Virus record (IMG/VR): IMGVR_UViG_3300040801_001436
Span: 1-36,219 of that record
Length of the DNA: 36,219 nt
From: a virus
Reading direction: 5' to 3' (one strand)
Shown: piece after piece, positions 4,243 through 34,549 of the stretch
Position numbering within the stretch: position 1 is the first letter of the stretch
Layout: each line of letters starts with the position of its first letter
Notes under the pieces: generated by a model
The model's input: the letters and a program-made list of their open reading frames with translations, nothing else
Databases searched by the model: none
What the model was told of the DNA's origin: nothing
Made by a program: the position numbers and the translations under genes

Positions 4243-4740
4243 CTATTCCTCCCCGAAGGCCCGGTCTACCATGCTGGCGAAGTGGTCTCCCTGGGCGGCC
4301 CCGGCGGCGTCCCTGGCGGCTGCCCTGGCGGCTGCCCAGGCGGCGTCCCTGGCGGCGTCCCTGGCGGCGCGACTGATCTCCTCGCGGCCAGTCTCTAAAT
4401 AGTCGCGCACCACCTGCGGGGCGTCCCACATGTCAATCGCCTGAAGCGCGCACCACCGCGCGAACTCTCGTAGCATGTCCGTAGCATCAATGCGCTTGAC
4501 GATCATGCGGCGGCGGCAGACCAGCTTGTCGCCAGTCTCGTCCACAATCTCGTCACACTCGACCAGGCAGAGCGTTGCTCCAGGCGCATACGTCAAGGCG
4601 TCGAATGGGTGTATGCTTGCGTGCAGCCCGCTATGGCACATCACCGCCGGCCCGCCATGGAGAAGCCACTCGCCGTCCGGCGGCACCGGCCTGCCGTCTC
4701 TTAGCTTGTCTCCAACGAAATGGTACGCCTTCACTGACAT
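4243..4740 (-). CDS. conserved phage protein with C-terminal Ala-rich repeats, 165 aa
   Basis: Residues 1-115 form a conserved domain (VKAYHFVGDKLRDGRPVPPDGEW, then MCHSGLHASIHPFDAL and CLVECDEIV) that I recognise as a widespread uncharacterised phage family, related to DUF7666-type proteins. Next comes ALQAIDMWDAPQVVRDYLETG and a tail built from repeats of A-R-D-A-A/A-W-A-A (about residues 125-150), encoded by a GC-rich tandem repeat at about 4293-4375. Repeat number varies widely in relatives. The start at 4740 carries the shared leader (ACACGGGGAGCAAAGAC). The tail should form an amphipathic helix; its role is unknown. Confidence 0.7.
   Translation of the reverse strand: MSVKAYHFVGDKLRDGRPVPPDGEWLLHGGPAVMCHSGLHASIHPFDALTYAPGATLCLVECDEIVDETGDKLVCRRRMIVKRIDATDMLREFARWCALQAIDMWDAPQVVRDYLETGREEISRAARDAARDAAWAAARAAARDAAGAAQGDHFASMVDRAFGEE
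4293..4375. repeat. GC-rich tandem repeat encoding Ala-rich helix
   Basis: Imperfect units of roughly 12-15 bases (variants of GGCGGCGTCCCT and GGCGGCTGCCCT) recur about six times. On the minus strand they encode repeated ARDAA/AWAAA units at the end of the DUF7666-like gene. Such arrays change length by slippage or recombination. Confidence 0.7.
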
Positions 4741-5128: not shown

Positions 5129-5480
5129 GGTCTGCCCCCTCTCCGGCCACGTCCAGCGCCCGCTCCAGCCTGGCGGTGACGTGATAGTTGCGCGCCTCGC
5201 CGGCCCCCTGCGCGATAATGGACAGCGCCAACGCCATCGGGCTGGGTCCGTCGCCATCGCGGTAGGTCTCAAACAGGAACTCGCACGCCAGTCCTGCCGC
5301 CCACTTCTGGATCGCCTGTTCCGCGTGCGCCGATGGATACCCTTCGCGCACCTCATAGCGAACCAGCCCAGGGTCAAGGCTGGCGGGAAGGTCCGGCCAG
5401 CAACCGTCAAACACCTTGTCGATGTAGCGGATGGCCAGCTCCCGCGCCTTTACCGTCTGGTCAGTGTTTCTCGTATTCAT
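5115..5480 (-). CDS. hypothetical helical protein, 121 aa
   Basis: The product starts MNTRNTDQTVKARELAIRYID at 5480, preceded by the shared leader ACACAGGGAGTGAAGAC. It appears all-alpha: VKARELAIRYIDKVF, HAEQAIQKWAAGLACEFLFETY and SPMALALSIIAQGAGEARNYHV. No catalytic motif is visible and no family is recognised. It overlaps the next gene by 14 bp. Confidence 0.6.
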   Translation of the reverse strand: MNTRNTDQTVKARELAIRYIDKVFDGCWPDLPASLDPGLVRYEVREGYPSAHAEQAIQKWAAGLACEFLFETYRDGDGPSPMALALSIIAQGAGEARNYHVTARLERALDVAGEGADHETA

Positions 5481-7346: not shown

Positions 7347-7373
7347 GATTTAACAGTTTGGCCTCGACAAACA
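7347..7373 (+). repeat. 27-bp direct repeat, copy 1
   Basis: It begins GATTTAACAGTTTGG and matches 8934-8960 at 26 of 27 positions in the same orientation; the one difference is G at 7366 against A at 8953. The two copies bracket the whole five-gene minus-strand operon with its promoter and terminator. Confidence 0.8.
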
Positions 7374-7601: not shown

Positions 7602-7868
7602 CTAGATAGTGAACTGCCCTGGCATATCGTCGCCCATCCCGCGAGGGCTCACAAAGGCGTAACCCGCCTTGATCGCCCCGCCGACCCATTCGCCCGTCCA
7701 GCCGAGCTTGGCGGCGAGGGCAAACGCGGCGGCCGTGTGGTTTTCCTCTACATTCTTTGAATGGTCCCAATCAATCGTAATGGAAACTCCGCTTTCGGTC
7801 GTCGCCTTGACCCTAGATCCGCGACAGTCAGTAGGGCCGAGAAACTTTGTTTGGATTGCCTGATACAT
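7602..7868 (-). CDS. conserved small phage protein (YQAIQTKFLGPT family), 88 aa
   Basis: The product begins MYQAIQTKFLGPTDCRGSRVKA, then has ITIDWDHSKNVEENHTAAAFALAAKLGW. I recognise the pattern from many phage and plasmid accessory genes that carry no functional name. The family usually has an N-terminal beta-rich part and a C-terminal helix. The start at 7868 has the shared leader (ACACACGGGAGGAAAGACA). It is the fourth gene of the operon that ends at the 7450 terminator. Confidence 0.7.
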   Translation of the reverse strand: MYQAIQTKFLGPTDCRGSRVKATTESGVSITIDWDHSKNVEENHTAAAFALAAKLGWTGEWVGGAIKAGYAFVSPRGMGDDMPGQFTI

Positions 7869-7892
7869 TGTCTTTCCTCCCGTGTGTGTGGC

Positions 7893-8222: not shown

Positions 8223-8549
8223 TCAGATGGAAAAGTCTAGTTCTGGCGCCATGATTTTATCTGCGAATACTCCGAAAGCCAGCCCGCAATGATCGCAGTA
8301 CTCCGGGCCGTCGAATTCACCGTCATGCATGATGCCCGCTTCGCGGATGGTTCCGTCTAGTGCGTCTCTCAATTCGATGTCGTAACGCTCACGCACGCAA
8401 TTGCTGCAAAGCATGGCACCATCTAGTACGGCGAACATCATGTATCCGCCCGGCCATGCGTACCGCTCGCGTGCCACCAGCCGAACGACATCAGCGGGCG
8501 AATCTAGATTATACGCTCGGTCGTGAACTTCGATTGTTCCTGTTCGCAT
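8223..8549 (-). CDS. hypothetical protein with two CxxC knuckles, 108 aa
   Basis: The product starts MRTGTIEVHDRAYNL at 8549. CSNC in the middle and YCDHCG near the C-terminus form a probable single zinc site. Between the knuckles lies an acidic part (DIELRDALDGTIREAG, MHDGEFDGPE). The leader is part of a perfect 35-bp repeat shared with the upstream gene. A regulatory or adaptor role would fit a zinc ribbon of this size, but no family is recognised. Confidence 0.65.
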   Translation of the reverse strand: MRTGTIEVHDRAYNLDSPADVVRLVARERYAWPGGYMMFAVLDGAMLCSNCVRERYDIELRDALDGTIREAGIMHDGEFDGPEYCDHCGLAFGVFADKIMAPELDFSI

Positions 8550-8581
8550 TGTCTTGCCTCCCGTGTGATTGTGAACCCTGC
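8547..8581. repeat. 35-bp perfect direct repeat, copy 1 (start codon plus leader)
   Basis: Identical to 8812-8846. On the minus strand it runs from upstream CAGGGTTCAC through CACACGGGAGGCAAGACA to the ATG, so an entire translation-start cassette has been duplicated. This copy also includes the last base of the preceding gene's stop codon. Confidence 0.8.
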
Positions 8582-8814
8582 TATGCGTAGTATACTTTTC
8601 CATCAATGCCGACTCGCACGAACGCCAGCGGAACGACATAGGGGTTGCCCGCGTCGGTCCTCTTTCGCTCGCAGAGCTGGACCGGACGCCTGAGCTTGCG
8701 CTTGCGGTCTGTATCGCCCCTGGTGGCCTCATAGGCTTCTTTTGCCACCTGAATAGGGTCATTCCCGATATGTCCGTGCCCGTATCGGTCGCAGGCGTAA
8801 AATTCCCTAGTCAT
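8581..8814 (-). CDS. hypothetical protein, 77 aa
   Basis: First gene of the small operon: MTREFYACDRYGHGHIGN, then a charged helix (AYEATRGDTDRKRKLRR) and a beta-type end (VPLAFVRVGIDGKVYYA). The ATG at 8814 follows the shared leader. The promoter at 8871-8900 would give a 5' leader of about 50 bases. Two Cys and several His are present, without a clear zinc pattern. No family is recognised. Confidence 0.6.
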   Translation of the reverse strand: MTREFYACDRYGHGHIGNDPIQVAKEAYEATRGDTDRKRKLRRPVQLCERKRTDAGNPYVVPLAFVRVGIDGKVYYA

Positions 8815-8846
8815 TGTCTTGCCTCCCGTGTGATTGTGAACCCTGC
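8812..8846. repeat. 35-bp perfect direct repeat, copy 2 (start codon plus leader)
   Basis: Matches 8547-8581 at every position, 265 bp apart. Both copies end on a start ATG on the minus strand. Confidence 0.8.
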
Positions 8847-10676: not shown

Positions 10677-11033
10677 ATGCGCAGGTTGATCGTGGTGGCC
10701 ATGTTGGTCTTGGCCTCCGTTTTTGTCATGTCGGCCCTGGCGGCTGACGACGGGCAGCGGTTCCCGATTTCCGGGCTAGCCGCTGGCGACACGGTGTTTA
10801 CGTTGCCTGCGGACCAATCGCGGCTGCTGGACACCAACAACATCCCCAGCTTCGAGGCATTGATCACGGGGACTGGTGTAGACACTATCGGCTTCTTCAA
10901 CAAGATCGAGACGTATTCGATCGGCGGGCAGTCCGAGGCCAACCTGAAGTATTGGTCTGACGTTGGCTGGACGATCAACGTCGTGACTAACGGCGGGTCT
11001 GGCATCATCGTTCTTGGTTACGAGCCACAATAG
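10677..11033 (+). CDS. small secreted protein, 118 aa
   Basis: A clear Sec signal peptide, MRRLIVVAMLVLASVFVMSA with likely cleavage after ALA (residue 23 or so), precedes a beta-rich domain with Gly/Asp/Thr (FPISGLAAGDTVFTLPADQS, then DTIGFFNKIETYSIGG). There is no lipobox. I chose ATG 10677, with TTGGAGG upstream, over a TTG at 10665. It heads a block of three genes whose products all begin with signal peptides. A host-cell-surface or released accessory protein is inferred; no family is recognised. Confidence 0.65.
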   Translation: MRRLIVVAMLVLASVFVMSALAADDGQRFPISGLAAGDTVFTLPADQSRLLDTNNIPSFEALITGTGVDTIGFFNKIETYSIGGQSEANLKYWSDVGWTINVVTNGGSGIIVLGYEPQ

Positions 11034-11050
11034 CCCGATAGGAACTGGCC

Positions 11051-13666
11051 ATGCGTAGACTGCCGCTGATCATGGTTCTGCTGCCACTCTTGTGGTGCGT
11101 GTACGTGTTTGCTCAGACGTTCGAGCCTGGGCAACCCGGCACGATTAGCGGCTCTGGCACGTTTGGCCAGGGCTCTTTTGCATCTGGGGGTGGTTCCGAC
11201 ACGTATGTCTATGCCAACATTGAAGTTGCGTTCGAGACAGACAGCCCGGTTATCTCAGTGTCCTCCAAGCAGGACACCAACCACTGGGTGCGCGTAGATG
11301 CTGAGTACATCGACGGCGGCGGCGGCGGGTCTGATGAGGCTCGCGCTATCGTACATGCGGATACGGCCTCTGCCGATACGAACATGTACATGTTTAGCGT
11401 GGATCTCGACACATGTGCCGGAACATGGTCTGCGTATGCCGGCGACACGCTCCAGGTCTGGCTGCGGTATGCCGGTGGGCTGGCTTACAGCAACAAGTTC
11501 GTGATTCCTGCGCTGTCTGATATCACCTCTCCTACCATCGAGAACACTGCCAACTTCCTGCTGGCCTACGAGGGCAACGGCGACACGCTGACGATCGACG
11601 TGGACGCTGGATCGGACGAGGCTGCTACATGGACGCTGGCCTGCTCGTATACGAGTTCATATCCTGCCTACGGGGACGAGACCACTAGCCACTATCTATG
11701 GAAGACGGCGACCGCCAATCAATCGCACCAGGGCATCGAGGCTGCCTACGTGGACACCGTGACGGACCTGACGTGTATCGTCGGCCCTCGGGTGTATCAC
11801 AGCGACACGCTGCTGGTGACGCTGCGCGCTACTGACCAGTGGGGCAACACGTCTGATCCAGAGACATTGTACAGTGGCCTGGTTGAAATGCCTCTTGGTG
11901 AGGTGCCTGCTGTCAACCACGACATGTATGGCGTGGCGTGTTACCAGAGCGGCGGCCTCGTCCCCTATATCGAGGGCGACGAGACCCCAGAGGACTACGG
12001 GGAATATACGGTCTGGATGGGTGCCGTTGACCACGTATTCGGCACTGAGGCAGTGTCGAACGCGGGCTGGCATGGGTGGGTCCAGCAGGCTCGCGACGTA
12101 GCTGGGTCGAGGCTCGGCCCGGTTCTCGGGCACACCGAAGAATACTGTCAGTCAGAGTGGGTCTACGAGGCGTCGAAGCGCAAGGGCGCGTGGGCGCAGT
12201 CGCTATATGACTCGCTGCTGGCCGAGGACTCGGCAGACACGAATTTCCTGGTCCACCATCCGTCCGGCCATTTGACCTACGTGTGGCCATATGAGGGCTT
12301 CGGCCCGTTCGTCAACATGACTAACGAGTTCGCTCGCCGTCGGTTCGCGCAGATGCTGGTCGCAGAGTACAACCACTCGGACAACCGGGTGCCGTACACC
12401 GGCCTGCTATTCGATGTCTGGGAGCCGACGCTCTCGTTTGCATGTTGGGACACGATCGTCACGCTTGAAGGTGGAGACATCACCAACGGCACAAAAACCG
12501 GATCGATCTATGCATTCGACCAGGATCTTGACGGGACGCGGCTGGGCCTGGACCTGGACGAGCAGCAGGCCAGGCGGACGGGCATGGACAGCCTGTTCAC
12601 CTGCATACGCGAGGCGATCCGGGCCACGAATGCGGACTCGGTGGCTGAGTACTTCCTCTTGGGCGGGAACACGGACTACGCCTACTCGGACACCTCGTTC
12701 CTGAGCAACATCGACGTTGTCGAGGTCGAGGACTTCGGCTGTCCGGCCTACACGAACAACACGGCGTGGGAAGAGTACCCTTGGCACAACGCGGTTGACC
12801 CTGCGTACTACGACCAGGACTATCCGAACTATAACCTGCTAGCTGGCGTAGACTATCCGAACCCCTCGACGTTTACGGTGACGTGGGACAGTCTGGCTAA
12901 CTACATGCGGACGCAGTCGGGCGGGCCGTGGGTGATGTCCGAGGCGCGGCCTCCGGTGGGCGACACGATCGAGCCCGAGCTGCTAGAGGTGTACTCGCTG
13001 CTGTTCGACAACATCCATCCGTTCTATTTGGCCTATGACCTTGAGAGCGGCTATCGTCGGCACCGCCCTCCGAGTGAACGGGGTAAGGCCGACCTAGACT
13101 CGCTTGGCGCGTCTGACGGCGCGGCCACGCTGGATACGACGTCATATTCTGGGTACTGGTATCTGACCAGATCCTACGACAACGGCGAAGTCAAGATCAT
13201 GCTGCCCGAGCGCACCGGGTACGACTGCGAGACGGACTCGCTGGAGTATCTGGTCTATCTGACGGGCGGCGACACCTTGCGACTGTCTGACGGTTATCTC
13301 GATTTGGATATCAGTGTTCCGTCTGTCACCATCAGCGCCCTCGATTTTCAGTATACCGACGACCTGGTCCGCAACACAACCCAGCACCTCGACCTCGATG
13401 TAAACGAGGGTGGCACCTGGTATTATCGGTATCGGACCACCACAAACTCGGCTTCCGATCCAGCGGTGGACTGCGCGGCCTGGACCGGACCGCCGGCCTG
13501 GGGCTCGTGGAGTTCCTGGACGATGAGGACGTCAGGCTTCATTGACCTCAATACTGGGGTGCAGGAGTACAACGGCCAGTATACGGCCATTCATGTGCAA
13601 GTCTCCGGTTCGGCCACCGGGCCTGCGACAGATGAGGATTGCGCTTCGTTTAAGGGGCAAAAATGA
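11051..13666 (+). CDS. large secreted multidomain protein, glycosidase-like barrel, 871 aa
   Basis: The signal peptide is MRRLPLIMVLLPLLWCVYVF with likely cleavage near residue 22. Residues about 30-290 are beta-rich and look like two or more Ig/Fn3-type domains. Residues about 295-690 resemble an alpha/beta barrel of the putative glycoside-hydrolase (GHL) type: NHDMYGVACYQS, then RRRFAQMLVAEYN, YTGLLFDVWEP near 450 (strand ending in an acidic residue), LLGGNTDYAY near 536 and VVEVEDFG near 553. The C-terminal third is beta-rich. Polysaccharide cleavage is inferred from the barrel motifs only. It could be a virion fibre or a released depolymerase. The next gene overlaps as ATGA. Confidence 0.55.
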   Translation: MRRLPLIMVLLPLLWCVYVFAQTFEPGQPGTISGSGTFGQGSFASGGGSDTYVYANIEVAFETDSPVISVSSKQDTNHWVRVDAEYIDGGGGGSDEARAIVHADTASADTNMYMFSVDLDTCAGTWSAYAGDTLQVWLRYAGGLAYSNKFVIPALSDITSPTIENTANFLLAYEGNGDTLTIDVDAGSDEAATWTLACSYTSSYPAYGDETTSHYLWKTATANQSHQGIEAAYVDTVTDLTCIVGPRVYHSDTLLVTLRATDQWGNTSDPETLYSGLVEMPLGEVPAVNHDMYGVACYQSGGLVPYIEGDETPEDYGEYTVWMGAVDHVFGTEAVSNAGWHGWVQQARDVAGSRLGPVLGHTEEYCQSEWVYEASKRKGAWAQSLYDSLLAEDSADTNFLVHHPSGHLTYVWPYEGFGPFVNMTNEFARRRFAQMLVAEYNHSDNRVPYTGLLFDVWEPTLSFACWDTIVTLEGGDITNGTKTGSIYAFDQDLDGTRLGLDLDEQQARRTGMDSLFTCIREAIRATNADSVAEYFLLGGNTDYAYSDTSFLSNIDVVEVEDFGCPAYTNNTAWEEYPWHNAVDPAYYDQDYPNYNLLAGVDYPNPSTFTVTWDSLANYMRTQSGGPWVMSEARPPVGDTIEPELLEVYSLLFDNIHPFYLAYDLESGYRRHRPPSERGKADLDSLGASDGAATLDTTSYSGYWYLTRSYDNGEVKIMLPERTGYDCETDSLEYLVYLTGGDTLRLSDGYLDLDISVPSVTISALDFQYTDDLVRNTTQHLDLDVNEGGTWYYRYRTTTNSASDPAVDCAAWTGPPAWGSWSSWTMRTSGFIDLNTGVQEYNGQYTAIHVQVSGSATGPATDEDCASFKGQK

Positions 13667-14001
13667 GGAAACTGACGCAACTGATCCTGGCCGTTACGTT
13701 ATTCGCGACGATCACGGTAGTGGCCAGCCCGAACGTCACGGCGACCTGGACGGCGCCGACCACTGGTTCGCCGGTAGAGTACTACGTCGTCGAGGTCTAC
13801 GAGGGCGGCGAGCTGGCGTTCACCGCCCAGCCGGCCGACACGTTCGTGGTCTTCAATGAGTTCGTGATGCTGAAGGAGTACACCGCTCGAGTCGCCGGGG
13901 TCGACGCACTCGGTCGCCAAGGCCCTTGGAGTGACTGGAGCGAGCCTTATATGTGGGACGAAGGAGCTCCCGGTTCTTGTGGTGTGATTGTGTGGCGGTG
14001 A
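13663..14001 (+). CDS. secreted single Fn3-domain protein, 112 aa
   Basis: The signal peptide (MRKLTQLILAVTLFATITVV, cleavage near ASP) is followed by one fibronectin-III-like domain: VTATWTAPTTGSPVEYYVVE, LKEYTARVAGVDALGRQGPW and SDWSEPY are the usual strand B/C, F and G signatures. There is no lipobox. It overlaps the 871-aa gene as ATGA and may be a partner or detached accessory domain of that protein. A 113-base gap without a gene follows; it holds no recognisable promoter. Confidence 0.65.
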   Translation: MRKLTQLILAVTLFATITVVASPNVTATWTAPTTGSPVEYYVVEVYEGGELAFTAQPADTFVVFNEFVMLKEYTARVAGVDALGRQGPWSDWSEPYMWDEGAPGSCGVIVWR

Positions 14002-14402: not shown

Positions 14403-14855
14403 GTGGACGTGGATATGCTAGAGCCCTACGTGAGCGTACTGAAGGAAGAAGAGGGGTTTACCCCGCATGTCATGCCGGACACGCGCGGCGTGTTTGTCGG
14501 CCATGGCTGCCGGGTAGATCCAGATGGCCCCGGACTCAGCAGGGAAGCCGCCGAATGCGACTTGAGGGTGAAGCTAGACGAGGCCATGGAAGACATGATC
14601 GTGACGTTTCCCGCCTGGTGGTTCTACGGCGAGGCGCGGCAGTCGGCGCTTATCTCGATGCGATACCAGCTTGGGCGCTTTGGATTCCTAGCGTTTTCCA
14701 AGATGATCGAGGCGGTCAGGGACGAGCGGTGGAACGACGCATCCGAAGAGTGCCTTGACAGCAAGGCGGCCCGTAATCCGTTGACAGAGAAGCGGTTTGC
14801 GCGGAACGCCCGGGCCCTGCGGACAGACGAATGGCAGTGGGAATGCGACGCCTAA
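14403..14855 (+). CDS. phage lysozyme, GH24-type endolysin, 150 aa
   Basis: The N-terminus reads LKEEEGFTPHVMPDTRGVFV: Glu17 with Gly18 and Asp26-Thr27 match the catalytic Glu and Asp of T4-type lysozymes (E-x8-D-T-x-G). Later parts (ALISMRYQLGRFGFLAFSKM, RDERWNDASEECLDSKAARN) match the helical domain of the family. The enzyme hydrolyses peptidoglycan between MurNAc and GlcNAc. The Thr normally found in T-I-G-x-G-H is not present in VFVGHG, so the catalytic triad is altered or shifted. No signal peptide, so holin-dependent release is expected. GTG 14403 or ATG 14415 could start it. Confidence 0.8.
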   Translation: MDVDMLEPYVSVLKEEEGFTPHVMPDTRGVFVGHGCRVDPDGPGLSREAAECDLRVKLDEAMEDMIVTFPAWWFYGEARQSALISMRYQLGRFGFLAFSKMIEAVRDERWNDASEECLDSKAARNPLTEKRFARNARALRTDEWQWECDA

Positions 14856-15170: not shown

Positions 15171-15472
15171 TGGGCGAGTTCGGCCTTGAGATCGTCATCG
15201 GCATTGTGGCGTTCCTGGCGCTCGTCTTCGGGCTAAAGGCTGGCCGGTCGGACGGCGGCAAGTCCGTGCTGAAGAAGGCCAAGGACATCTTCTCCGACGA
15301 GCAAGAAGAGGTGATGGCCGATGCCAGAGAACAGATGGAACAAAGACTTAGAGAGGTTGACTCAAGGCTGGCCCATGCTCGCAGCCTGCCTCTTGCTGAT
15401 CGCGTGCGTCTCATCCGCGAGCGAGCGGACATCCTTCGCCGAAAGCGACAGCTCAAGGTGGACGGTAAGTGA
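15170..15472 (+). CDS. N-terminal TM plus coiled-coil lysis protein, 100 aa
   Basis: One N-terminal membrane segment (GLEIVIGIVAFLALVFGL) is followed by a long charged coiled coil (VMADAREQMEQRLREVDSR, ADRVRLIRERADILRRKRQL). This is the topology of an inner-membrane spanin (Rz-like) or of a membrane-tethered structural protein. Its last 152 bases overlap the start of a lipoprotein gene in another frame, the arrangement typical of Rz/Rz1 pairs. I chose ATG 15170 over a GTG one codon earlier. Confidence 0.6.
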   Translation: MGEFGLEIVIGIVAFLALVFGLKAGRSDGGKSVLKKAKDIFSDEQEEVMADAREQMEQRLREVDSRLAHARSLPLADRVRLIRERADILRRKRQLKVDGK

Positions 15473-15692
15473 TGCATGGTATATCGAGGAAGTCCAGGCC
15501 GTCAATGATAGCCTAAGGGGACGACTGGAGTTTTCTTCGGCGAAATTGGACAGCGCTAGGATAGAGGCTCACAAGATGCAGTTGGACATCATCTACCTGG
15601 AGGCCAACCAGCGGAAGTGGTATGACGAGATTCTGTTGTTCGCTAAGTTGCTTGCACTTGCATTGTCGGTGAACTGGCTAACGGAGAACTAG
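15321..15692 (+). CDS. lipoprotein, candidate spanin, 123 aa
   Basis: MLAACLLLIAC (residues 19-29) is a lipoprotein signal with lipobox LIAC. The mature part holds a periplasmic stretch and a coiled coil (VQAVNDSLRGRLEF, SSAKLDSARIEAHKMQLD). A second hydrophobic segment lies at the C-terminus (ILLFAKLLALALSVNWL). An N-terminal lipid anchor with a C-terminal TM segment is the layout of unimolecular spanins such as T1 gp11. Alternatively it is the outer-membrane half of a two-component pair with the overlapping gene at 15170. ATG 15321 or ATG 15375 may start it. It implies an outer membrane in the host. Confidence 0.55.
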   Translation: MPENRWNKDLERLTQGWPMLAACLLLIACVSSASERTSFAESDSSRWTVSDAWYIEEVQAVNDSLRGRLEFSSAKLDSARIEAHKMQLDIIYLEANQRKWYDEILLFAKLLALALSVNWLTEN

Positions 15693-17539
15693 TGGCCAAG
15701 GCCAAAGTACAGAAGCTGCCCAAGGCAGACCTAGAACTGATCCACTCCAAGCTCGCCGAGGTGTGCTTCCGTGGCACGCCAGAGCAGGGGTACATGGACA
15801 GTGGCTTCTGGAAGTTCATTGACTACGTGTACACCTACGACGCCCACGACCCTGAGCGGGCGATCAAGAAGCTGCCGGCCGACAAGGAGTATGTCGCCTG
15901 GTGCTTTGCCCACATGCTGAGTTGCGACAAGCTGCTGCTGCCGAAGTCCCGGCAGATCATGGTGTCCTGGATGCTGGCGGCGTTCGCGGTGTGGTTTGTG
16001 CGTACCCAGCCCTACTGTCTGGTCCTGGTTCAGAGCGAGGACGCGGACAAGGCCAACGCCCTAGTCTCTAAGGGGGCCGATGCCCCCGCGCTGGGCCGCA
16101 TGGACTTTATTGAACAACATCTACCCCAGTGGCTTCGCGACCCAAATATAGTCGATGGCCCCGGCAACAAGGTGGGGGAGCTGGTATACACGCCTACGCC
16201 CAAGACGGAGCAAGGCGTTAAGGTGCCCTGGCACGGAAGCCGTATCAAGGGGCTCCCCCAGGGGGCGCGCAAGGTGGCCGGCTACACGGTGTCGTTGTTC
16301 ATCAGCGATGAGGCGGCCCATCAGGAGAGTTTCGAGGAGACGGTCACGGCCCTGCTCCCGGCGCTGATGTCGCCCAAGAGTTCTACGCGGTTCATCGCGG
16401 CGTCCTCGGTGATCGGCGGGTCTCACTTCAATCGGATGGTGCTGGAGAGCAACAAGGCCCCTGGGCGCGGCGAGATCTTTGTCGAGCCCGAGAACACGGG
16501 GTGTGCTGAGACTGAGGGGCTGGTGCTGTCTAGCCAGCGCGGTGCGCTGATCGACGGTATGCGCTCTTGGGACACGCCTAGCGGGTACTCGGTGCTGGAG
16601 ACTCACTACAGGAGCGACCCAGACAAGAACCCTGGGACCGAGGCCGGCGCGGCGTGGCTGAAGCGGGCTGCCAAGGCCTACATCGGCGGTATGCGGTCTC
16701 CCGGCTGGCAACAGGAGATGGAGATCGACTACTCGGCCCGTGGCGGGCTGCCGGTCTTCCCGTTCCTGACCGACCAGCATACTCCGGTGTTCATCCCGCG
16801 CATGACGGTGCGCGAGGTGAAGCAGCGCCGGATGAAGATCGTCTCTGGCTACGACTACGGGACGCTGAACCCTTCGGCGCATGTGATCATCGGCGTGGAC
16901 CCGCAGTATGGCGACTGGTACTTCCTTGATGAATTGTACGAGCCCTGTTCCGGCGTGAAGCGCCATGTGGCCAGGCTAAAGCAAAGCCCCTATGTAAAGG
17001 GCGGCCTGATCCAGTACACGAAGTGCGATCACAGCCTTGGATTCAAGAACCAGCAGCAGGCCGGCGGTCTGTCTTGCGTAGTGGATCTCTTTAGGAAAGA
17101 GGGCTTTCACATGACCCCCGGACGCAAAGGCGCCGGGGACACCCTGCGGGTGATGCTGCTGGACCGCTGGAGCAATGTGGACGAGTGGGCTGCGTGGGAC
17201 CGGGAGGAGGCCAAGCGCCTCCAGGCCGGGGAGCCCCCGCGCCGTAGGCCGCCTAGGGCATACATCACCGCCGGCTGCCCGAAGTTGTGGTGGGAGTGCC
17301 AGCGGCTTCGGCTGAAGGAGCACACCAGCGCCGCCGTGGCGGCCCGCAAGAACGAGCCCGACCAGATCATGGACAAGGACGACCATGCCTACCAGGCAGC
17401 GGCCTATGTCCTGGACACGATGCCGGAGGCAAAGGTAGCGCGAGCCCGACAGGGCAGAGGAGTGACTTGGGATGACATCGACCGCCAAATCAGAGAGCGC
17501 GAGCAAGAAGGCCGATACAAAGGCGAGTACGTCGCCTAG
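15692..17539 (+). CDS. terminase large subunit, 615 aa
   Basis: The packaging motor: an ATPase that pumps DNA through the portal plus a nuclease that cuts concatemers. The ATPase part has LLLPKSRQIMVSW (about 81-93) in the Walker A place, Walker B VSLFISDEA with D206-E207, and the coupling motif FIAASS (234-239). The RuvC-fold nuclease part has SGYDYG (D388), DELYE near 413, a D near 448 and DKDDHAYQAAAYVL near the end. The Walker A lacks the usual GK[ST] and has MVS instead, a deviant form. The start is GTG 15692, overlapping the previous TAG. Confidence 0.92.
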   Translation: MAKAKVQKLPKADLELIHSKLAEVCFRGTPEQGYMDSGFWKFIDYVYTYDAHDPERAIKKLPADKEYVAWCFAHMLSCDKLLLPKSRQIMVSWMLAAFAVWFVRTQPYCLVLVQSEDADKANALVSKGADAPALGRMDFIEQHLPQWLRDPNIVDGPGNKVGELVYTPTPKTEQGVKVPWHGSRIKGLPQGARKVAGYTVSLFISDEAAHQESFEETVTALLPALMSPKSSTRFIAASSVIGGSHFNRMVLESNKAPGRGEIFVEPENTGCAETEGLVLSSQRGALIDGMRSWDTPSGYSVLETHYRSDPDKNPGTEAGAAWLKRAAKAYIGGMRSPGWQQEMEIDYSARGGLPVFPFLTDQHTPVFIPRMTVREVKQRRMKIVSGYDYGTLNPSAHVIIGVDPQYGDWYFLDELYEPCSGVKRHVARLKQSPYVKGGLIQYTKCDHSLGFKNQQQAGGLSCVVDLFRKEGFHMTPGRKGAGDTLRVMLLDRWSNVDEWAAWDREEAKRLQAGEPPRRRPPRAYITAGCPKLWWECQRLRLKEHTSAAVAARKNEPDQIMDKDDHAYQAAAYVLDTMPEAKVARARQGRGVTWDDIDRQIREREQEGRYKGEYVA

Positions 17540-17756: not shown

Positions 17757-19742
17757 ATGTACGGTTCGAGCATCCAGAAGCCGAGTGGCGCCGATGGCCT
17801 GGTGAAAGACTATTTCACCGAGCTGGAGCGCGGCCTGAGTAAGCGGAACGACCTTCTCGAAGAGTGGGAACAGAACGAGAAGTACGCTTACCGAGACCTT
17901 GGGTTGGACTCCGACGACGACAACACCCAGGTCAACAAGCTTGGCTCCTGGGTAGAAAGCCGGACGGCGGCTCTTGCGTACCGGAATCCTCGCGCCAAGC
18001 TGACCCCGCGCAACGAGACGGGGTGGGAGGCCGTGGACGTCCCGGTGATCGACCCGGAGACAGGGCCGGTCTCTGAGCCGGTGATGGACCCGATGACCGG
18101 GCAGCCGGCGTTCAATCCCATGACCGGCGAGCCCATGATGCGCCCCTTGATGCGCAAGGTGCCGCGCTACAAGGTGCTTGAGCACACTGTCAACTATCTT
18201 CTCAACCGGCCATCGTTCAGGACTGCTGCCACCGGGCGGCTTGCGATCAAGGCTGCACTGCTCACTGGCACGGGGGCGGCCAAGGTGGGGTACACGGCGG
18301 ACTTCCGCGATGACGAGGACAGCCCTCCGCCCATTCCGCAGGAAGACATCGCCTTCCTGGACCCTGAGATGCTGAGAGAGGACTACGAGTTTGACGGCGA
18401 TGTGCCCCTGATTGTTGACGGGGCGCTGGTCCCGAAGGACTCGCTGCCGATTGACGAGCAATGGTTCATCGACTGGTGCGACACCAAGAAGATGATCTTT
18501 GATCCTGATGGTGAGAACGACTTTTGCCAGCACCGGTGGGTGGCCTACGAGTACATCCGGCCGCTGAAGGACGTGAAGGCCGACAAGACGCTGAAGAACA
18601 CCAAGGATCTGAAGGCCACCGGCTCGGACTATGAGGAGTATGACACAGGCGTTCGCAAGGCGATAGGGTCGTTCAACAAGTCGAATGACTCGACAGACGA
18701 GGAGTGGCGGCGCAAGCACAAGATGGTGCGGCTGTTCGAGATATGGGACTTTGAACGTAAGCGGCTTGTGGTGCTGGCCGATGGGCACCAGGAGATCCTG
18801 CGAGACGACCCGATTCCCGATGGCGTAGACGAGACCACCGGGCCGTGGTCGTTCTACCGGCCTATCGAGCGGCTGGCCGAGTGGTATGGCAAGGCCCCGG
18901 CGACTGATCTGCGTATCCTGAACGAGTGGTACAACCAGGCAAACAAGCAGTCGATGCGCGAGATGCGTAAGGCTGCATGGAAGATTCTTGGTCGGAAATC
19001 TCGCCTAGACGGCTCAGAGATCAACAAGATCACCAGCCCCAAGAACGAGTTGGTGATGATTGACGACTCTGACTGGGAGCAGGGCGCGTCCATGGCGGAT
19101 GCCGTGATGCCCATGCAGATCCCGACCATCGCCCCCGAGATGTTCAACTACAGCAAGATCATTGCTGCGAACTTCGATGAGGTGGCCGGGCAGCCGGGTG
19201 AGAGCCGGGGCGTGGCTAGCGCAGACACCGCCACGCAGGTGAAGCAGCTCAGTGCTCGCGAGACGATGCGCGAGGACTTCCAGCGGGCTATCTACGCAGA
19301 GTGCTGGCGGGACATTCTGACGAAGCTGGTGAACAGCATCCAGGCGAACATGACCATGGAACAGGCCATAACCATCAACGACGGCGACGGATACGCCTTT
19401 GTGACGATGGTAGACAGCAAGATGATCCAGGGCGATTTCGACGTGGACCTGGACGTTGAGGACATGGCCCCGCGAGACAAGGAAGTGGATAAGGCCAATT
19501 TCGTCAACGCCATCACGGTGCTAGCGCAGATGCCCGGGTTCGGGGCCGACGAGGCTACCGCCAATGCGTTTCTGGACGCCTTCGGGGTCCACAACAAGGC
19601 GTTGGCCAAGGGGATCAAGCAGTGGGCCGAGTTGCAGCAGATGATGATGATCTTCCAGGCCCAGGGAAAGCAGGCCGGTACGCCGGACAACGCCCCCCCT
19701 AGAGACGAGGCTACGGCCATCAGCCAGAAGGGCGGCATGTAA
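17757..19742 (+). CDS. portal protein, 661 aa
   Basis: The product has the size and position of P22-type podovirus portals: directly after the terminase and before scaffold and capsid genes. Recognisable parts are an N-terminal acidic helix region (TELERGLSKRNDLLEEWEQN), RLAIKAALLTGTGAAKVGY, RILNEWYNQANKQSMREM, FDEVAGQPGESRGV and a helical C-terminus with SARETMREDFQRAIYAECW. Portals form the dodecamer at one capsid vertex that passes DNA and anchors the tail. The Pro-rich repeated piece near 85-125 (MDPMTGQPAFNPMTGEPM) is a local duplication. No signal of truncation. Confidence 0.88.
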   Translation: MYGSSIQKPSGADGLVKDYFTELERGLSKRNDLLEEWEQNEKYAYRDLGLDSDDDNTQVNKLGSWVESRTAALAYRNPRAKLTPRNETGWEAVDVPVIDPETGPVSEPVMDPMTGQPAFNPMTGEPMMRPLMRKVPRYKVLEHTVNYLLNRPSFRTAATGRLAIKAALLTGTGAAKVGYTADFRDDEDSPPPIPQEDIAFLDPEMLREDYEFDGDVPLIVDGALVPKDSLPIDEQWFIDWCDTKKMIFDPDGENDFCQHRWVAYEYIRPLKDVKADKTLKNTKDLKATGSDYEEYDTGVRKAIGSFNKSNDSTDEEWRRKHKMVRLFEIWDFERKRLVVLADGHQEILRDDPIPDGVDETTGPWSFYRPIERLAEWYGKAPATDLRILNEWYNQANKQSMREMRKAAWKILGRKSRLDGSEINKITSPKNELVMIDDSDWEQGASMADAVMPMQIPTIAPEMFNYSKIIAANFDEVAGQPGESRGVASADTATQVKQLSARETMREDFQRAIYAECWRDILTKLVNSIQANMTMEQAITINDGDGYAFVTMVDSKMIQGDFDVDLDVEDMAPRDKEVDKANFVNAITVLAQMPGFGADEATANAFLDAFGVHNKALAKGIKQWAELQQMMMIFQAQGKQAGTPDNAPPRDEATAISQKGGM

Positions 19743-20185
19743 TGCCGATCTACGAGTACGCTTGCGAGAAGTGTGGGGTCAGCCGCGACGAGATGCGCAC
19801 GATCGCAGAGCGCGACGACGCTCCTACGTGCGAGTGTGGCCTGAAGATGGAGCGGGTGCTGTGCGCTCCTGCGTTTGGCGGAGACCTCGACAACACGGGC
19901 TGGCGGCAGGGCGTGAGCGGCTGGGACGAGGGGCTAGGATGCTACGTGCGAGACACGGCAGACCGCAAGAAGATCATGGAGCGCAAAGGGTTAACTGAGT
20001 GGAACCCTGACTCCACGCACAAGAAGATGATAGAGGAGTCACAGTACATTCGGAAGCATGGCCGGGGCCGCGAGGCGACCCGGGCGGTGCAAGAGGTGGG
20101 CGAGAAGGTGATCAGAGATCACCGGAAAGCCGTAGTCAAGGAGAAGTTCCGCCCAGTGCGGGACGCAATTAACGAGGTGTGCTAA
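19742..20185 (+). CDS. FmdB-type zinc-ribbon protein, 147 aa
   Basis: The N-terminus MPIYEYACEKCG is the classic FmdB/CxxC_CxxC_SSSS regulatory-protein start. Its second half-site is CECGLKMERVLCAPAFGG; here the pair reads CxC (C30, C32) instead of CxxC. The rest is a charged helical extension (KKMIEESQYIRKHGRGRE, EVGEKVIRDHRKAVVKEKF). Such genes often lie between portal and capsid genes in phages of this type, where their job is unknown. Start and stop both overlap neighbours by one base. Confidence 0.75.
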   Translation: MPIYEYACEKCGVSRDEMRTIAERDDAPTCECGLKMERVLCAPAFGGDLDNTGWRQGVSGWDEGLGCYVRDTADRKKIMERKGLTEWNPDSTHKKMIEESQYIRKHGRGREATRAVQEVGEKVIRDHRKAVVKEKFRPVRDAINEVC

Positions 20186-23395: not shown

Positions 23396-24215
23396 AACAC
23401 GCTTCTGGGAGATTTACGGCGGCGATGAGACGCTGTACCCGGAGTTGTCCGATCAGTTGCTTGCGCTTGCAAACATGACTGTTCGGAGGTTCGTGGCCGA
23501 GACTGACTCGCTGGTCGGCCGCGCTTCGATCGTATGTGAGGCGGGCACTCAGAACTACGACATGCCGACCAACTGCGACAAGATCATCCGGGCAGCCTAC
23601 GACGGGGACAAGCTCACGGCAGTCTCCAAGTGGTCTCTGCACTGCGGTGTCTACGGCAACGGGTGGGACCGCCTTCAGGGCACCCCAAGGCACTACTTCC
23701 TGGACGGCCTCAACGAGCAGATCGGCCTCTATCGTATCCCGAGTGTAGATACCACCCTGGAGGAAACGGACAATAGCGAGACCATCGGGTCCGGCTACGG
23801 GGCAGTTATCGCACCCTCTGGCACGGGGGCCAGGATCTCCAACACCGGCTACGGGGCCGTGGTGGTAGACTTCGGCGGCTCCACGTATGACATCTCTGCC
23901 AACGCGCTGGACCTGTTCTTCTACGCCAGGCCGAGCGACCTTGAGTATGACTCAGATGTCCCCGACCTGCCCGCCTGGATGCACACTTATGTCCTATATG
24001 ACATATTGCGGGCCGTATATACAATGAAGTTCCCGAGTCAGGACTACGAGCGCGCCGCGTTCTTCGGGCGCCTGGTGCAGTCTGGGCTCAAGAAGCTGCG
24101 CTCAGTGGCCACCAAGCCCACCCCAAAGAGTTACGTGTTCCGGGAGCAGGACGGCCTGGAGACCGTGGGGACATGGCCGTTCCAGTACCCCGAGCACATT
24201 GAGGAGTCGTCGTGA
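23376..24215 (+). CDS. head-tail adaptor/connector protein 2, 279 aa
   Basis: The N-terminus TWADIKTRFWEIYGGDETLY, followed by LSDQLLALANMTVRRFVAET and then MPTNCDKIIRAAYDG..., resembles podovirus connector proteins (gp4/gp11-like role) with a helical bundle and beta insert. Residues about 125-170 have a Gly-rich beta part with two similar GYGAVI/GYGAVV motifs, a small internal repeat. The end is helical (VLYDILRAVYTMKFPSQDYE). GTG 23376 overlaps the previous gene. It probably joins portal or adaptor ring and tail hub. Confidence 0.65.
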   Translation: MTWADIKTRFWEIYGGDETLYPELSDQLLALANMTVRRFVAETDSLVGRASIVCEAGTQNYDMPTNCDKIIRAAYDGDKLTAVSKWSLHCGVYGNGWDRLQGTPRHYFLDGLNEQIGLYRIPSVDTTLEETDNSETIGSGYGAVIAPSGTGARISNTGYGAVVVDFGGSTYDISANALDLFFYARPSDLEYDSDVPDLPAWMHTYVLYDILRAVYTMKFPSQDYERAAFFGRLVQSGLKKLRSVATKPTPKSYVFREQDGLETVGTWPFQYPEHIEESS

Positions 24216-25858
24216 TGAAGCGGTTTATCGCTGCTGGCGTAATCTGTCTTGCCGTCGCCGGCGTGGTGCTGGCGCAGGTGAGCGACCGGCTTGGCGTGCA
24301 GGACATGCGGTATGGCAACAGTTGGGACCGAGACCTCGGGACCATCTCTGTCGAGATCAAGGGGATCACTCCGATCAACGTGCAGGGGTTCCCTTTTGAT
24401 GCGGACGGCTCTGATGGCTCTAATGACGAGGTGGCCATCCAGGCGGCCATCGACAGCGCCTACTCCTGGGGCGGCGGCACGGTCTATCTGCCGGCAGGAA
24501 CGTACTATGTCGGCGGCAACGGCTACGTTGACAGCGTGGACAGTTGGTGTCTGCGGCTAAAGAGCAACGTGACCATTATGGGCGACGGCCCGGCTACCGT
24601 GATCAAGCTCTACGCTCAGAAGGGCCGCGACGTACAGCCCAATGGATACCCGGTCTCTCATGTGTTCTACACGGGCAAGCGGACGTGGGCGTACCCTACC
24701 CAGACGTCCGGGCAGGCGACCGGCGAGCGGGTGTACGAGGACTTGATCGACACCACGCACGTTAGTACGAACGGTGAGGTATACGCCAGCAACATCGAGA
24801 TCCGTGACCTGTGCATCGACACGGACTATGAGAACCAGCCGAGCGCGTCCGGGCAGACGAGCAGCCCTATCAGCATCAACTCTGCCACCAACGTAAGAGT
24901 GATCAACTGCAAGCTGACGGGCGCTGTGTCTACGGCTGCCAACTTCTACGGCAACCACCCTGACAGCAGCACGACCAATATCATCTTCTCTGGGAACATC
25001 GTCAGCGAGGCCGGCGAGGATGGCGTGGGCGGTATCGGGGCCACGTTTGATCGAGTGGATGGCATCTTGTGTACGAACAACGTATTCAAGGACATCGGCC
25101 TGCGGGCGGTGGTGGTCACCAGGGCATACAACGCGGTCGTCGCCAATAACGAGATCCGCGATGTCTACGACGACGGTATCCGCTGTATCGGCGGAACCTT
25201 TGTCAGCATCACCGGCAACCACATGCACAATGTTGGGCAGTATGGAGTGCAGGTTGGGCCGAACGGGAGCAGCTTCAGCGTCGGAGTATCCGTTACCGAC
25301 AACAACCTGGTCCTGTCTGCCACCTCTGGCGAGTGCGGGGTGCTTGTCCTTGACGCCCAGCGGGTACATGTCTCCGGGAACGTGACGTGGTTCCCCCACT
25401 GGGACGGGACCGGCGCAAGCTCTTACATCGGCGGCATTTACGTGGCAAACAGCGACACACTGGCCGATGGGACAGCCTGGACGCGGGAGATTTCCGTCAT
25501 CGGCAACTCCCTGTACAGCACCGACGAGGTGTACTCGGACTCTGGGGACACGCTGAACTATGCTCCTGCTGCGATCCAGCTAGTCAACACGGTCAGCACA
25601 TACGAGAGTCGGCCCCAGCACACGATGGTGGCCAACAACTTCTCAAGCTGGTCGTTCGACGGCTTCAGGGTTGTGAACTTCGATTCTGTCGCCGCGTCAG
25701 ACAACTACTTTGCCAACGTGGTGCGGACGGGGCTTGATACCACCAACGTCGGCTGGCTTGGCGATCCGGGCTACTTCTTCGGAGCCGCCGCTGGAGATGC
25801 AGACCGAGACTCTACGGGCTCCAAGGACGATTACCACTTCACGTCCCCGGAGGATTAG
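24215..25858 (+). CDS. beta-helix (pectate-lyase-like) tailspike candidate with signal peptide, 547 aa
   Basis: Residues about 60-105 (DADGSDGSNDEVAIQAAIDS, GGGTVYLPAGTYYVGG) are the entry motif of the pectate-lyase-3/right-handed beta-helix superfamily, used by tailspikes to hold and cut surface polysaccharide. Parallel-helix rungs follow (NIIFSGNIVSEAG, AVVVTRAYNAVVANNEIRDV, SITGNHMHNVGQ, ISVIGNSLYS). Unusually for a virion protein it starts with a signal peptide (MKRFIAAGVICLAVAGVVLA). The neighbours are connector and tail-hub genes, so a virion role is likely, but an exported enzyme is possible. I chose ATG 24215 over the GTG one codon earlier. Confidence 0.7.
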   Translation: MKRFIAAGVICLAVAGVVLAQVSDRLGVQDMRYGNSWDRDLGTISVEIKGITPINVQGFPFDADGSDGSNDEVAIQAAIDSAYSWGGGTVYLPAGTYYVGGNGYVDSVDSWCLRLKSNVTIMGDGPATVIKLYAQKGRDVQPNGYPVSHVFYTGKRTWAYPTQTSGQATGERVYEDLIDTTHVSTNGEVYASNIEIRDLCIDTDYENQPSASGQTSSPISINSATNVRVINCKLTGAVSTAANFYGNHPDSSTTNIIFSGNIVSEAGEDGVGGIGATFDRVDGILCTNNVFKDIGLRAVVVTRAYNAVVANNEIRDVYDDGIRCIGGTFVSITGNHMHNVGQYGVQVGPNGSSFSVGVSVTDNNLVLSATSGECGVLVLDAQRVHVSGNVTWFPHWDGTGASSYIGGIYVANSDTLADGTAWTREISVIGNSLYSTDEVYSDSGDTLNYAPAAIQLVNTVSTYESRPQHTMVANNFSSWSFDGFRVVNFDSVAASDNYFANVVRTGLDTTNVGWLGDPGYFFGAAAGDADRDSTGSKDDYHFTSPED

Positions 25859-33200: not shown

Positions 33201-33675
33201 TGTGAACCTCCGCAGCTAGTGCGATACCCATGGCGTCGGCCACGGCCTCGCGCGACTTCTTGGTTAGATCAGAGATATCCAGCAACTCCATGGCGGCCAT
33301 GGACATATCCCGCTTGTCCGCCTTGCCGCTGCCGGTGAGCGCCTTCTTGGCCGACGTCGGTGCGACCCGCACCACCTCCATGCCTAGCCCGAGCGCCCTC
33401 TCGGCCATGACCCCGATCAGTTCCCGCTGCTTGAACGCGGACTGCATGGAGTGGCCGTGCGTGGCATGGTTCTCCTCGATGGCAAAAATCGCCCCCTTGT
33501 GGACGTATTGGTCTACATATGCCAAGACGTGCCCCCTGATGTACTCACACTTGCCCTCCACCTTCATGCCGGTAGGGCCGCCCACGGCGTACACGTCTAT
33601 GAACGACTGTGTTCTGGTATCGTAGACTGCTACCCCCGTCATGGTGAGCCCCGGGTCTATGCCGATGATGATCAT
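33184..33675 (-). CDS. RuvC-like Holliday-junction resolvase, 163 aa
   Basis: An RNase-H-fold nuclease that cuts four-way junctions. The first acidic residue is D7 in IIIGIDPGLTMTG, the second E67/E68 in FAIEENHATHG, and the last D147 in SREAVADAMGIALAA; a basic loop TGSGKADKRDM (about 114-124) precedes it. All acidic sites expected for RuvC are there. In this phage it would resolve recombination intermediates made with the Rad52-type protein and prepare DNA for packaging. The start overlaps the SLOG-gene stop as ATGA. Confidence 0.88.
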   Translation of the reverse strand: MIIIGIDPGLTMTGVAVYDTRTQSFIDVYAVGGPTGMKVEGKCEYIRGHVLAYVDQYVHKGAIFAIEENHATHGHSMQSAFKQRELIGVMAERALGLGMEVVRVAPTSAKKALTGSGKADKRDMSMAAMELLDISDLTKKSREAVADAMGIALAAEVHNGQDS

Positions 33676-34013
33676 GGCTGCACCACATACACGTCGAGGT
33701 CGGACGACCTTGCTTGGCCTATCATGTTCTCAGTCCCCTTCCCGCCGGGGAACGCCACAAGCGCCCCAGCGTACTCTGCCATTTCTCCATTTCTTGCGGG
33801 ACCGGCGGCCCGGCCGAGCCCTTCCCAGTCCGCTGGGAATCTTTTGACCGGGATGCCCCGCGCGGACGCCCAATCCTCGCCGGCCGCATCGGCCCCGCTA
33901 GCGCCACCGCTTACTACTTCCGACACCTTCACGAACGAATTGAACGCATCCATGTACCCGAATAGATACGCCCGGTAGTTGAACCTGCGTCCGCCTGCGA
34001 TTATCACCTTCAC
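33672..34013 (-). CDS. SLOG-fold DUF2493 (YspA-like) protein, 113 aa
   Basis: VKVIIAGGRRFNY at the start, VVSGGASGADAAGEDWASAR and PVKRFPADW in the middle, then ARNGEMAEYAGALVAFPGGKGT: the complete signature of DUF2493, a Rossmann-like SLOG domain thought to bind nucleotides or nucleotide-derived ligands. GTG 34013 is my start (AAAGGTGGGCAAGATC upstream); an earlier GTG would add VGKI. It is translationally coupled to the resolvase gene. SLOG proteins take part in nucleotide signalling and defence; in phages their task is not settled. Confidence 0.85.
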   Translation of the reverse strand: MKVIIAGGRRFNYRAYLFGYMDAFNSFVKVSEVVSGGASGADAAGEDWASARGIPVKRFPADWEGLGRAAGPARNGEMAEYAGALVAFPGGKGTENMIGQARSSDLDVYVVQP

Positions 34014-34045
34014 GATCTTGCCCACCTTTCTGGCCGCAGCCGCCG

Positions 34046-34267
34046 CTATCGGCCGTATTTGCGCCCATATGACCGCCGCGCCTGGCTCGCCTTCACGAAA
34101 GCAGACACGACCGCCACCACGAATACGATGGCAAACTGCCCCCATAGCGGTGATGTCACCCACCACCACGACCAGTCTATCGCTCCAGCCAGTTTCATGG
34201 CGATAAACACGATGGAAAGCGCCCCCATAAACCCGATCCCTCCACCGGACGCACTGCTGCTGCTCAT
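34046..34267 (-). CDS. small two-TM membrane protein, 73 aa
   Basis: After a Ser/Gly-rich start come two membrane segments (FMGALSIVFIAMKLAGAI at about 13-30, and LWGQFAIVFVVAVVSAFV at about 41-58) and a basic tail SQARRSYGRKYGR. The layout resembles small holins, but the gene lies among early genes, far from the lysis block, so a different membrane role is as likely. Start ATG 34267 is preceded by AAAGGTGGGCTAGAT. Confidence 0.6.
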   Translation of the reverse strand: MSSSSASGGGIGFMGALSIVFIAMKLAGAIDWSWWWVTSPLWGQFAIVFVVAVVSAFVKASQARRSYGRKYGR

Positions 34268-34342
34268 ATCTAGCCCACCTTTCTGCCCCTAAAACAGCCC
34301 CAATTTCTGCCCGACCTACCACACCTGCCGGGCCTCGATCGT

Positions 34343-34549
34343 CTATTCTTGGGCGGCTTTGCCCCCCCTCCTGCCGGGGCGATAGGGGTACAGCGGGCAT
34401 CCGGTGTCCGTGCAGTCGGCAACGGCGGCCCTCTCGTACCCCATGCACTCCCAGCAGAAGGACTTGATGGCGTTGGCGTGGCTCCTGCCGGACATGGCCT
34501 TCTTGTAGGCCGGCTTGCACACGGACGGGATGTTCTTGCGATCAATCAT
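34343..34549 (-). CDS. small Cys-rich phage protein, 68 aa
   Basis: The core SFCWECMGYERAAVADCTDT, followed by GCPLYPYRPGRRGG, is a pattern I know from many phage genomes (C..CC.G....V..C....CPL.PYR), a likely zinc-binding module of unknown function. The N-terminus is basic (MIDRKNIPSVCKPAYKKAM). It overlaps the upstream gene by 8 bases. A 75-base gap follows it on the minus strand, before the two-TM gene. Confidence 0.65.
   Translation of the reverse strand: MIDRKNIPSVCKPAYKKAMSGRSHANAIKSFCWECMGYERAAVADCTDTGCPLYPYRPGRRGGKAAQE

Follow-up and report, generated by a model that had tools for sequence, protein, structure and literature searches.

The window analysed here is the complete 36,219-base record IMGVR_UViG_3300040801_001436 of an uncultured tailed virus. 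Its gene order shows a single late block on the plus strand (9408-32971), and the early genes, among them those for DnaB, Rad52 and RuvC, are located on the minus strand. Near the start of the late block, 5' of the lysis and terminase genes, three plus-strand genes (10677-14001) encode proteins with Sec signal peptides. The first (10677..11033) encodes a small beta-type protein of 118 aa with a cut predicted after residue 22 (SALA|ADD), the second (11051..13666) a giant of 871 aa whose signal peptide covers residues 1-21 and leaves Gln at position +1 (FA|QTFEP), and the third (13663..14001) a single Fn3 domain of 112 aa with the site VVA|SPN. The N-termini of the three proteins are MRRLIVVAMLVLASVFVMSALA|ADD, MRRLPLIMVLLPLLWCVYVFA|QTF and MRKLTQLILAVTLFATITVVA|SPN, respectively. 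The three ORFs and their leaders were recovered as described in the initial annotation. A positive n-region, an uncharged h-region and a small-x-small site were seen in all three leaders, and a ribosome-binding-like sequence lies 5' of each ORF. The Fn3 domain was likewise recovered, with a match to fn3 (PF00041; E 4.1e-7, 30.6 bits) above the gathering cutoff of 25. The stop codon of the giant gene and the start codon of the Fn3 gene overlap as ATGA, so the two genes are probably translationally coupled.

The three genes are followed, all on the plus strand, by a lysis cassette with a leaderless gene for a lysozyme-like endolysin (14403..14855; PF00959, E 0.0013, 19.5 bits, below the cutoff of 22.3), by a spanin-like membrane protein (15321..15692; 27% identical to L008_2411 of a related contig, E 5e-4), which was left out of the module count, and by the large terminase (15692..17539; phrog_2, E 5.1e-16). 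Then come the genes for the portal (17757), a zinc-ribbon-like protein (19742-20185), a scaffold-like protein (20179), the capsid (21155, assigned by position), a cement-like protein (22259) and two SU10-type adaptors (22733 and 23376). The nozzle-like gene (25864) follows, with large internal proteins further on. The presence of the SU10-type adaptors suggests a podovirus-like phage. The window terminase had no match among 50,697 phage records, and the best alignment of the window portal to Schitoviridae-type portals reached only 27% over 200 residues. Between the second adaptor gene and the nozzle-like gene lies a fourth leader-bearing gene, encoding a right-handed beta-helix tailspike of 548 aa (24212..25858), so that the initial count of three consecutive secreted proteins holds for those three but is an undercount for the window. 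As the module genes overlap by their starts or stops with each other, with an adaptor gene or with the terminase gene, they belong to the late operon, and we infer from this gene order that the module is probably co-produced with the virion and lysis proteins. A promoter and terminator scan gave results at chance level only.

Several other features of the window were recorded. The zinc-ribbon-like protein, of about 150 aa with CxxC motifs, is present in most relatives that have sequence at that place, and such proteins often carry a motif like QGDTxAGGCNYxxYD. The assignment of gene 9408 as the small terminase, taken from a comparison with the first ORF of contig L007, was unsupported. On the minus strand, the leader CACGGGAGG[A/C]AAGACAATG, a ribosome-binding site with its ATG, is repeated at 7866-7884, 8547-8565 and 8812-8830 (three copies against 0.09 expected). 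Identical 25-nt repeats occur at 5475 and 5801, a near-identical 27-nt repeat at 7347 and 8934, and a 12-bp tandem repeat with units such as GGCGTCCCTGGC at 4282-4377, inside a minus-strand ORF of the early region. A YspA/SLOG-family protein (33672-34520, minus strand; PF10686, E 2.9e-15) adjoins a RuvC-like resolvase.

About 30 related contigs were gathered by terminase and portal profiles, with the large terminase at 15692 as the anchor gene. They are distant relatives, about 33-51% identical in terminase and portal, and several are fragments. Among the contigs that extend upstream of the large terminase, leader-bearing genes recur directly before it in L007 (283, 126, 1822 and 499 aa), L020 (135, 103 and 2106 aa), L008 (115 and 648 aa), L006 (129 aa), L046 (666 aa) and L048 (378 aa); genes of the same kind at the same place argue that those of the window are not there by chance. 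Across the relatives, this slot holds small Fn3 and beta proteins together with giants of varied carbohydrate-acting folds. The window Fn3 protein has homologues in L020_1988, L007_1240 and L006_860. A small beta-type leader protein is common to L007_2593, L008_2824 and L020_3354, and the leader proteins adjoining the terminase in L025, L032 and L035 probably belong to the same family. The 118-aa protein of the window agrees with this family in position and length, but no homology between them was detected by hhalign, and its membership found no support.

Among the larger slot proteins, that of L036 resembles Polysacc_deac_1 (E 1.4e-4, just under the cutoff), and that of L046 resembles it weakly (E 0.039) and is homologous to the N-terminal half of the L020 giant (E 7e-56). 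The L048 protein is polysaccharide lyase-like (PF14099, E 1.5e-4, under the cutoff) and the L008 protein is GDSL esterase-like. Because the slot is filled in relatives by deacetylase-like, GDSL-esterase and polysaccharide-lyase-like proteins, an action of the module on surface or matrix glycans appears probable. Giants are absent from the slot in L025/L027, L032 and L035, which means that phages of this group can do without the complete module.

The ends of some of these proteins differ. The Fn3 protein of L020 (1988-2413) has a signal peptide and, at its C-terminus, a membrane helix whose last residues are KVRRR, and that of L100 (12126-12512, minus strand) likewise has a C-terminal membrane helix, with IIRKRS as its end; the version in L005 and L100 is without a signal peptide. 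Several module proteins, in L006, L007, L031, L041 and L048, have a short C-terminal tail of the type TAPSNLTVE or GPPGPPTAPVMEGG. Such tails resemble a truncated Fn3 start and may reflect capture from longer host proteins.

Signal peptides were scored by a simple heuristic alone. It was positive for 19 of the 20 module and tailspike proteins versus 1 of the 181 other late genes. The raw values were 20/21, before the spanin-like L008_2411 was removed, and 4/184, three of these four being tailspikes that were likewise removed. The only protein missed, L008_13413, has an obvious signal peptide. In 10/20 proteins, a small residue followed by Gln comes immediately behind the hydrophobic core (background 0.12 per segment, P 3.6e-5); these include 5/5 tailspikes and two of the four leader-bearing proteins of the window. 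A looser Gln test gave 11/21, with shuffles of residues 15-45 giving a mean of 5.26, an sd of 1.83 and a maximum of 13, which makes this test weaker when taken alone. The genes behind these counts are not independent samples, some being homologous. Low lysine in the amino-acid composition was rejected as a sign of export, as it did not set the exported proteins apart from ordinary tailspikes.

Gln at +1 after the signal-peptidase cut is the Q-rule of Bacteroidetes, which is also seen in some neighbouring groups such as Ignavibacterium; the Bacteroidetes mean is about 71% (PMC5837995), and the share found here is enriched but below it. With Gln directly after the predicted cut in half of the proteins, the leaders look like real signal-peptidase substrates, and export of the leader-bearing proteins is likely. 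The cleavage-site pattern, the one source for this assignment in a group with no cultured phage or host, points to a Bacteroidota-like host. The terminase-profile scan of 84,980 genomes identified no prophage or host of this group. The N-termini could instead stay uncleaved and anchor ordinary virion or ejection proteins in a membrane or in the tail. In favour of this, a textbook site is missing in some of them: in the L020 spike the hydrophobic core is followed by a long charged segment, and the +1 residue of L007_8445 is Pro. However, the small-x-small sites and the Gln enrichment fit cleavage, and the leader alone is common to otherwise unrelated proteins of very different size, other late genes being without it, which leaves this explanation distinctly unlikely. 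No NCBIfam model of a Type IX secretion C-terminal sorting domain matched, and no outer-membrane secretion signal was found that would account for passage beyond the periplasm before lysis.

Residues 286-756 of the 871-aa giant (11906..13318, plus strand), where a GH-like barrel is suspected, are homologous to regions of two further giants from phages, L020_3672 (blastp, E 1e-5) and L007_2980 (E 1.5e-4). The window giant carries GLLFD (451-455), DQDLDG (490-495), LLGGNTD (536-542), VVEVED (556-561) and RSYDNG (707-712), of which hhhD at 455, DxDxDG at 490-495, E at 558-560 and Y-D-N-G at 709-712 are common to the giants. These motifs resemble the hhhD, DxDxDG, EQxA and R-x-Y-x-N-G-like pattern of the putative glycoside hydrolase barrels of GHL15 type (PF14885). 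The likeness serves as a lead only; PF14885 did not match the giant even at E 10. Neither the giant nor its central region matched any Pfam GH family; no sequence match was found in Pfam, PHROG or PDB, searches of phage and plasmid sequences with the giants returned no matches, and scanning of viral and genome contigs added no relatives of the central region. The AlphaFold models of this region, from the window (pLDDT 34, three-sequence alignment) and from L020 (pLDDT 30, four-sequence alignment), were too poor to be used. A Foldseek search with the pLDDT-34 model placed GH5, GH1 and GH18 barrels among the top rows, the best at E 8e-3 and TM 0.16, which is not significant. The glycosidase-like barrel first proposed for this protein is thus suggested by the motifs but not backed by profile matches, structure prediction or fold search; it is plausible, with the chances about even.

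The tailspike at 24212 has a beta-helix region matching PF13229, PF12708 and phrog_2234 (E 1.9e-13) and a Sec signal peptide with the predicted site VLA|QVSDR and Gln at +1. Homologues with signal peptides occur in L006, L008, L020 and L036, and a post-leader motif, roughly [SG]xxDxx[YW][GA], is kept in all five spikes. Profile positions 1-182 of phrog_2234 are unmatched in the window spike, with the signal peptide standing in their place. Among known phages, nine spikes match the same beta-helix; none of the nine has a signal peptide, and the matched region is preceded in them by 47-259 residues. The window spike thus shares its beta-helix with podovirus tailspike depolymerases (phrog_2234, PF12708/PF13229), but where these have an anchor domain it has a signal peptide and a short conserved segment.

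As commonly taught, tailed phages build their virions in the cytoplasm and export little beyond lysis proteins. The premise that a protein with a signal peptide is not a virion protein nevertheless meets contrary hints here, namely the leader on the tailspike and the signal-peptide GDSL protein of L008, whose C-terminal end matches the phage head spike fiber domain (NF048003; E 7.6e-14, which is above the cutoff). These hints would be consistent with an exported receptor-binding set, in which the tailspike, and perhaps the giant, matures outside the cytoplasm via Sec and is then fitted to the virions while the cell lyses or afterwards. The same explanation would accommodate the position of the spike gene, which overlaps with its first codon the end of the adaptor gene, and the conserved post-leader motif. 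The signal-peptide spike is also the sole receptor-binding candidate found in the window, as no further spike or fibre candidate follows the nozzle-like gene there, in L036 or in L008. Relatives without a signal-peptide spike have signal-less spike-type proteins at that place, pectate-lyase-type in L032 (E 2e-8) and a weak beta-helix in L005 (E 0.0078). On the other hand, the usual N-terminal anchor domain is absent, assembly is cytoplasmic, and among the fragmentary contigs L006 and L020 end too early for spikes after the nozzle gene to be judged. To our knowledge, no tailed phage exports virion spikes via Sec, and no report of Sec-exported tailspikes was found in the open-access literature searched, which is part of the whole literature. 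Outside mounting of such a set is a tentative alternative, and its wider form, in which the receptor-binding spikes as well as accessory glycan enzymes leave the cell via Sec, lose their leaders to the host's signal peptidase and are attached to virions from outside during or after lysis, is possible though doubtful.

The closest known case comes from phages of Porphyromonas gingivalis, for which a family Nixviridae has been proposed; in these, five genes whose function is unknown encode proteins with Q-rule signal peptides (PMC10367356). Their products are phage-encoded Sec/SPI substrates that carry Gln at +1 and are believed to pass through the host's secretion system, and the window proteins, with Gln at the predicted +1 in two of four, would be of a similar kind; unlike those five genes, the window has a recurrent late-operon module of several genes, with giants and a tailspike, in podovirus-like phages. 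The P. gingivalis phage proteins were read as potential outer-membrane modifiers (PMC10367356), which would favour a remodelling of the infected cell's envelope that blocks superinfection or shields the cell and does not serve progeny release. The membrane helix of the L020 Fn3 protein and the lipobox-like LISC of the L007 Fn3 protein point the same way. However, genes placed beside the lysis genes in a late operon would come on too late to serve exclusion well, enzymes of giant size would be an expensive means to this end and the window Fn3 protein has no C-terminal helix, and remodelling is therefore unlikely.

The giants are mosaic, vary from phage to phage and look like multi-domain secreted proteins of bacteria, as would be expected of host-derived passenger genes (morons or auxiliary metabolic genes) for the use of polysaccharides, with no virion role. 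The overlaps of module genes with the terminase and adaptor genes, the filling of the slot across deep divergence and the absence of prophages from the genome scan make this highly unlikely.

Exported phage endolysins, such as Lys44 of fOg44 and the SAR endolysins, have long been known (PMC6116005). The window proteins would likewise be late phage proteins sent via Sec before lysis, but exported endolysins act on peptidoglycan, whereas no lysin domain was found by Pfam and PHROG behind the leaders of the window's exported proteins and the endolysin-like gene itself is leaderless. Phage DGR proteins are stated to be without signal peptides (PMC6199706).

Taken together, the initial proposal of an exported system acting on the host surface or matrix stood as regards export, recurrence as a system and probable glycan action, but not as regards the glycosidase or barrel identity of the 871-aa protein. 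We favour, with a probability of roughly one half, a late-expressed, Sec-exported phage set that would act on glycans of the host envelope or matrix. The set would be made late, alongside the virion and lysis proteins, and signal peptidase I of a Bacteroidota-like host would remove the leaders, often leaving Gln at +1, a predicted cleavage with good sequence support. The giant may then modify or cut a surface glycan via its central GH-like region, in the periplasm or outside the cell, and the small Fn3 and beta proteins may assist, perhaps by binding or anchoring. The tailspike, of beta-helix depolymerase type by its profile matches and presumably by activity, would be a second member of the set. 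Most likely, the set would serve to remove or remodel the capsule, EPS or matrix round the dying cell so that progeny leave and spread, with spike and giant acting as free enzymes or mounted on virions after export.

Q-rule leaders on phage proteins were already known; what is described here is their recurrence in a late-operon module that includes giants and a tailspike. The pattern of Gln at +1 may help host assignment for uncultured phages. If true, a recurrent exported glycan-acting set that includes a tailspike would mean that these phages either release free matrix-opening enzymes or have virions that are finished outside the cytoplasm.
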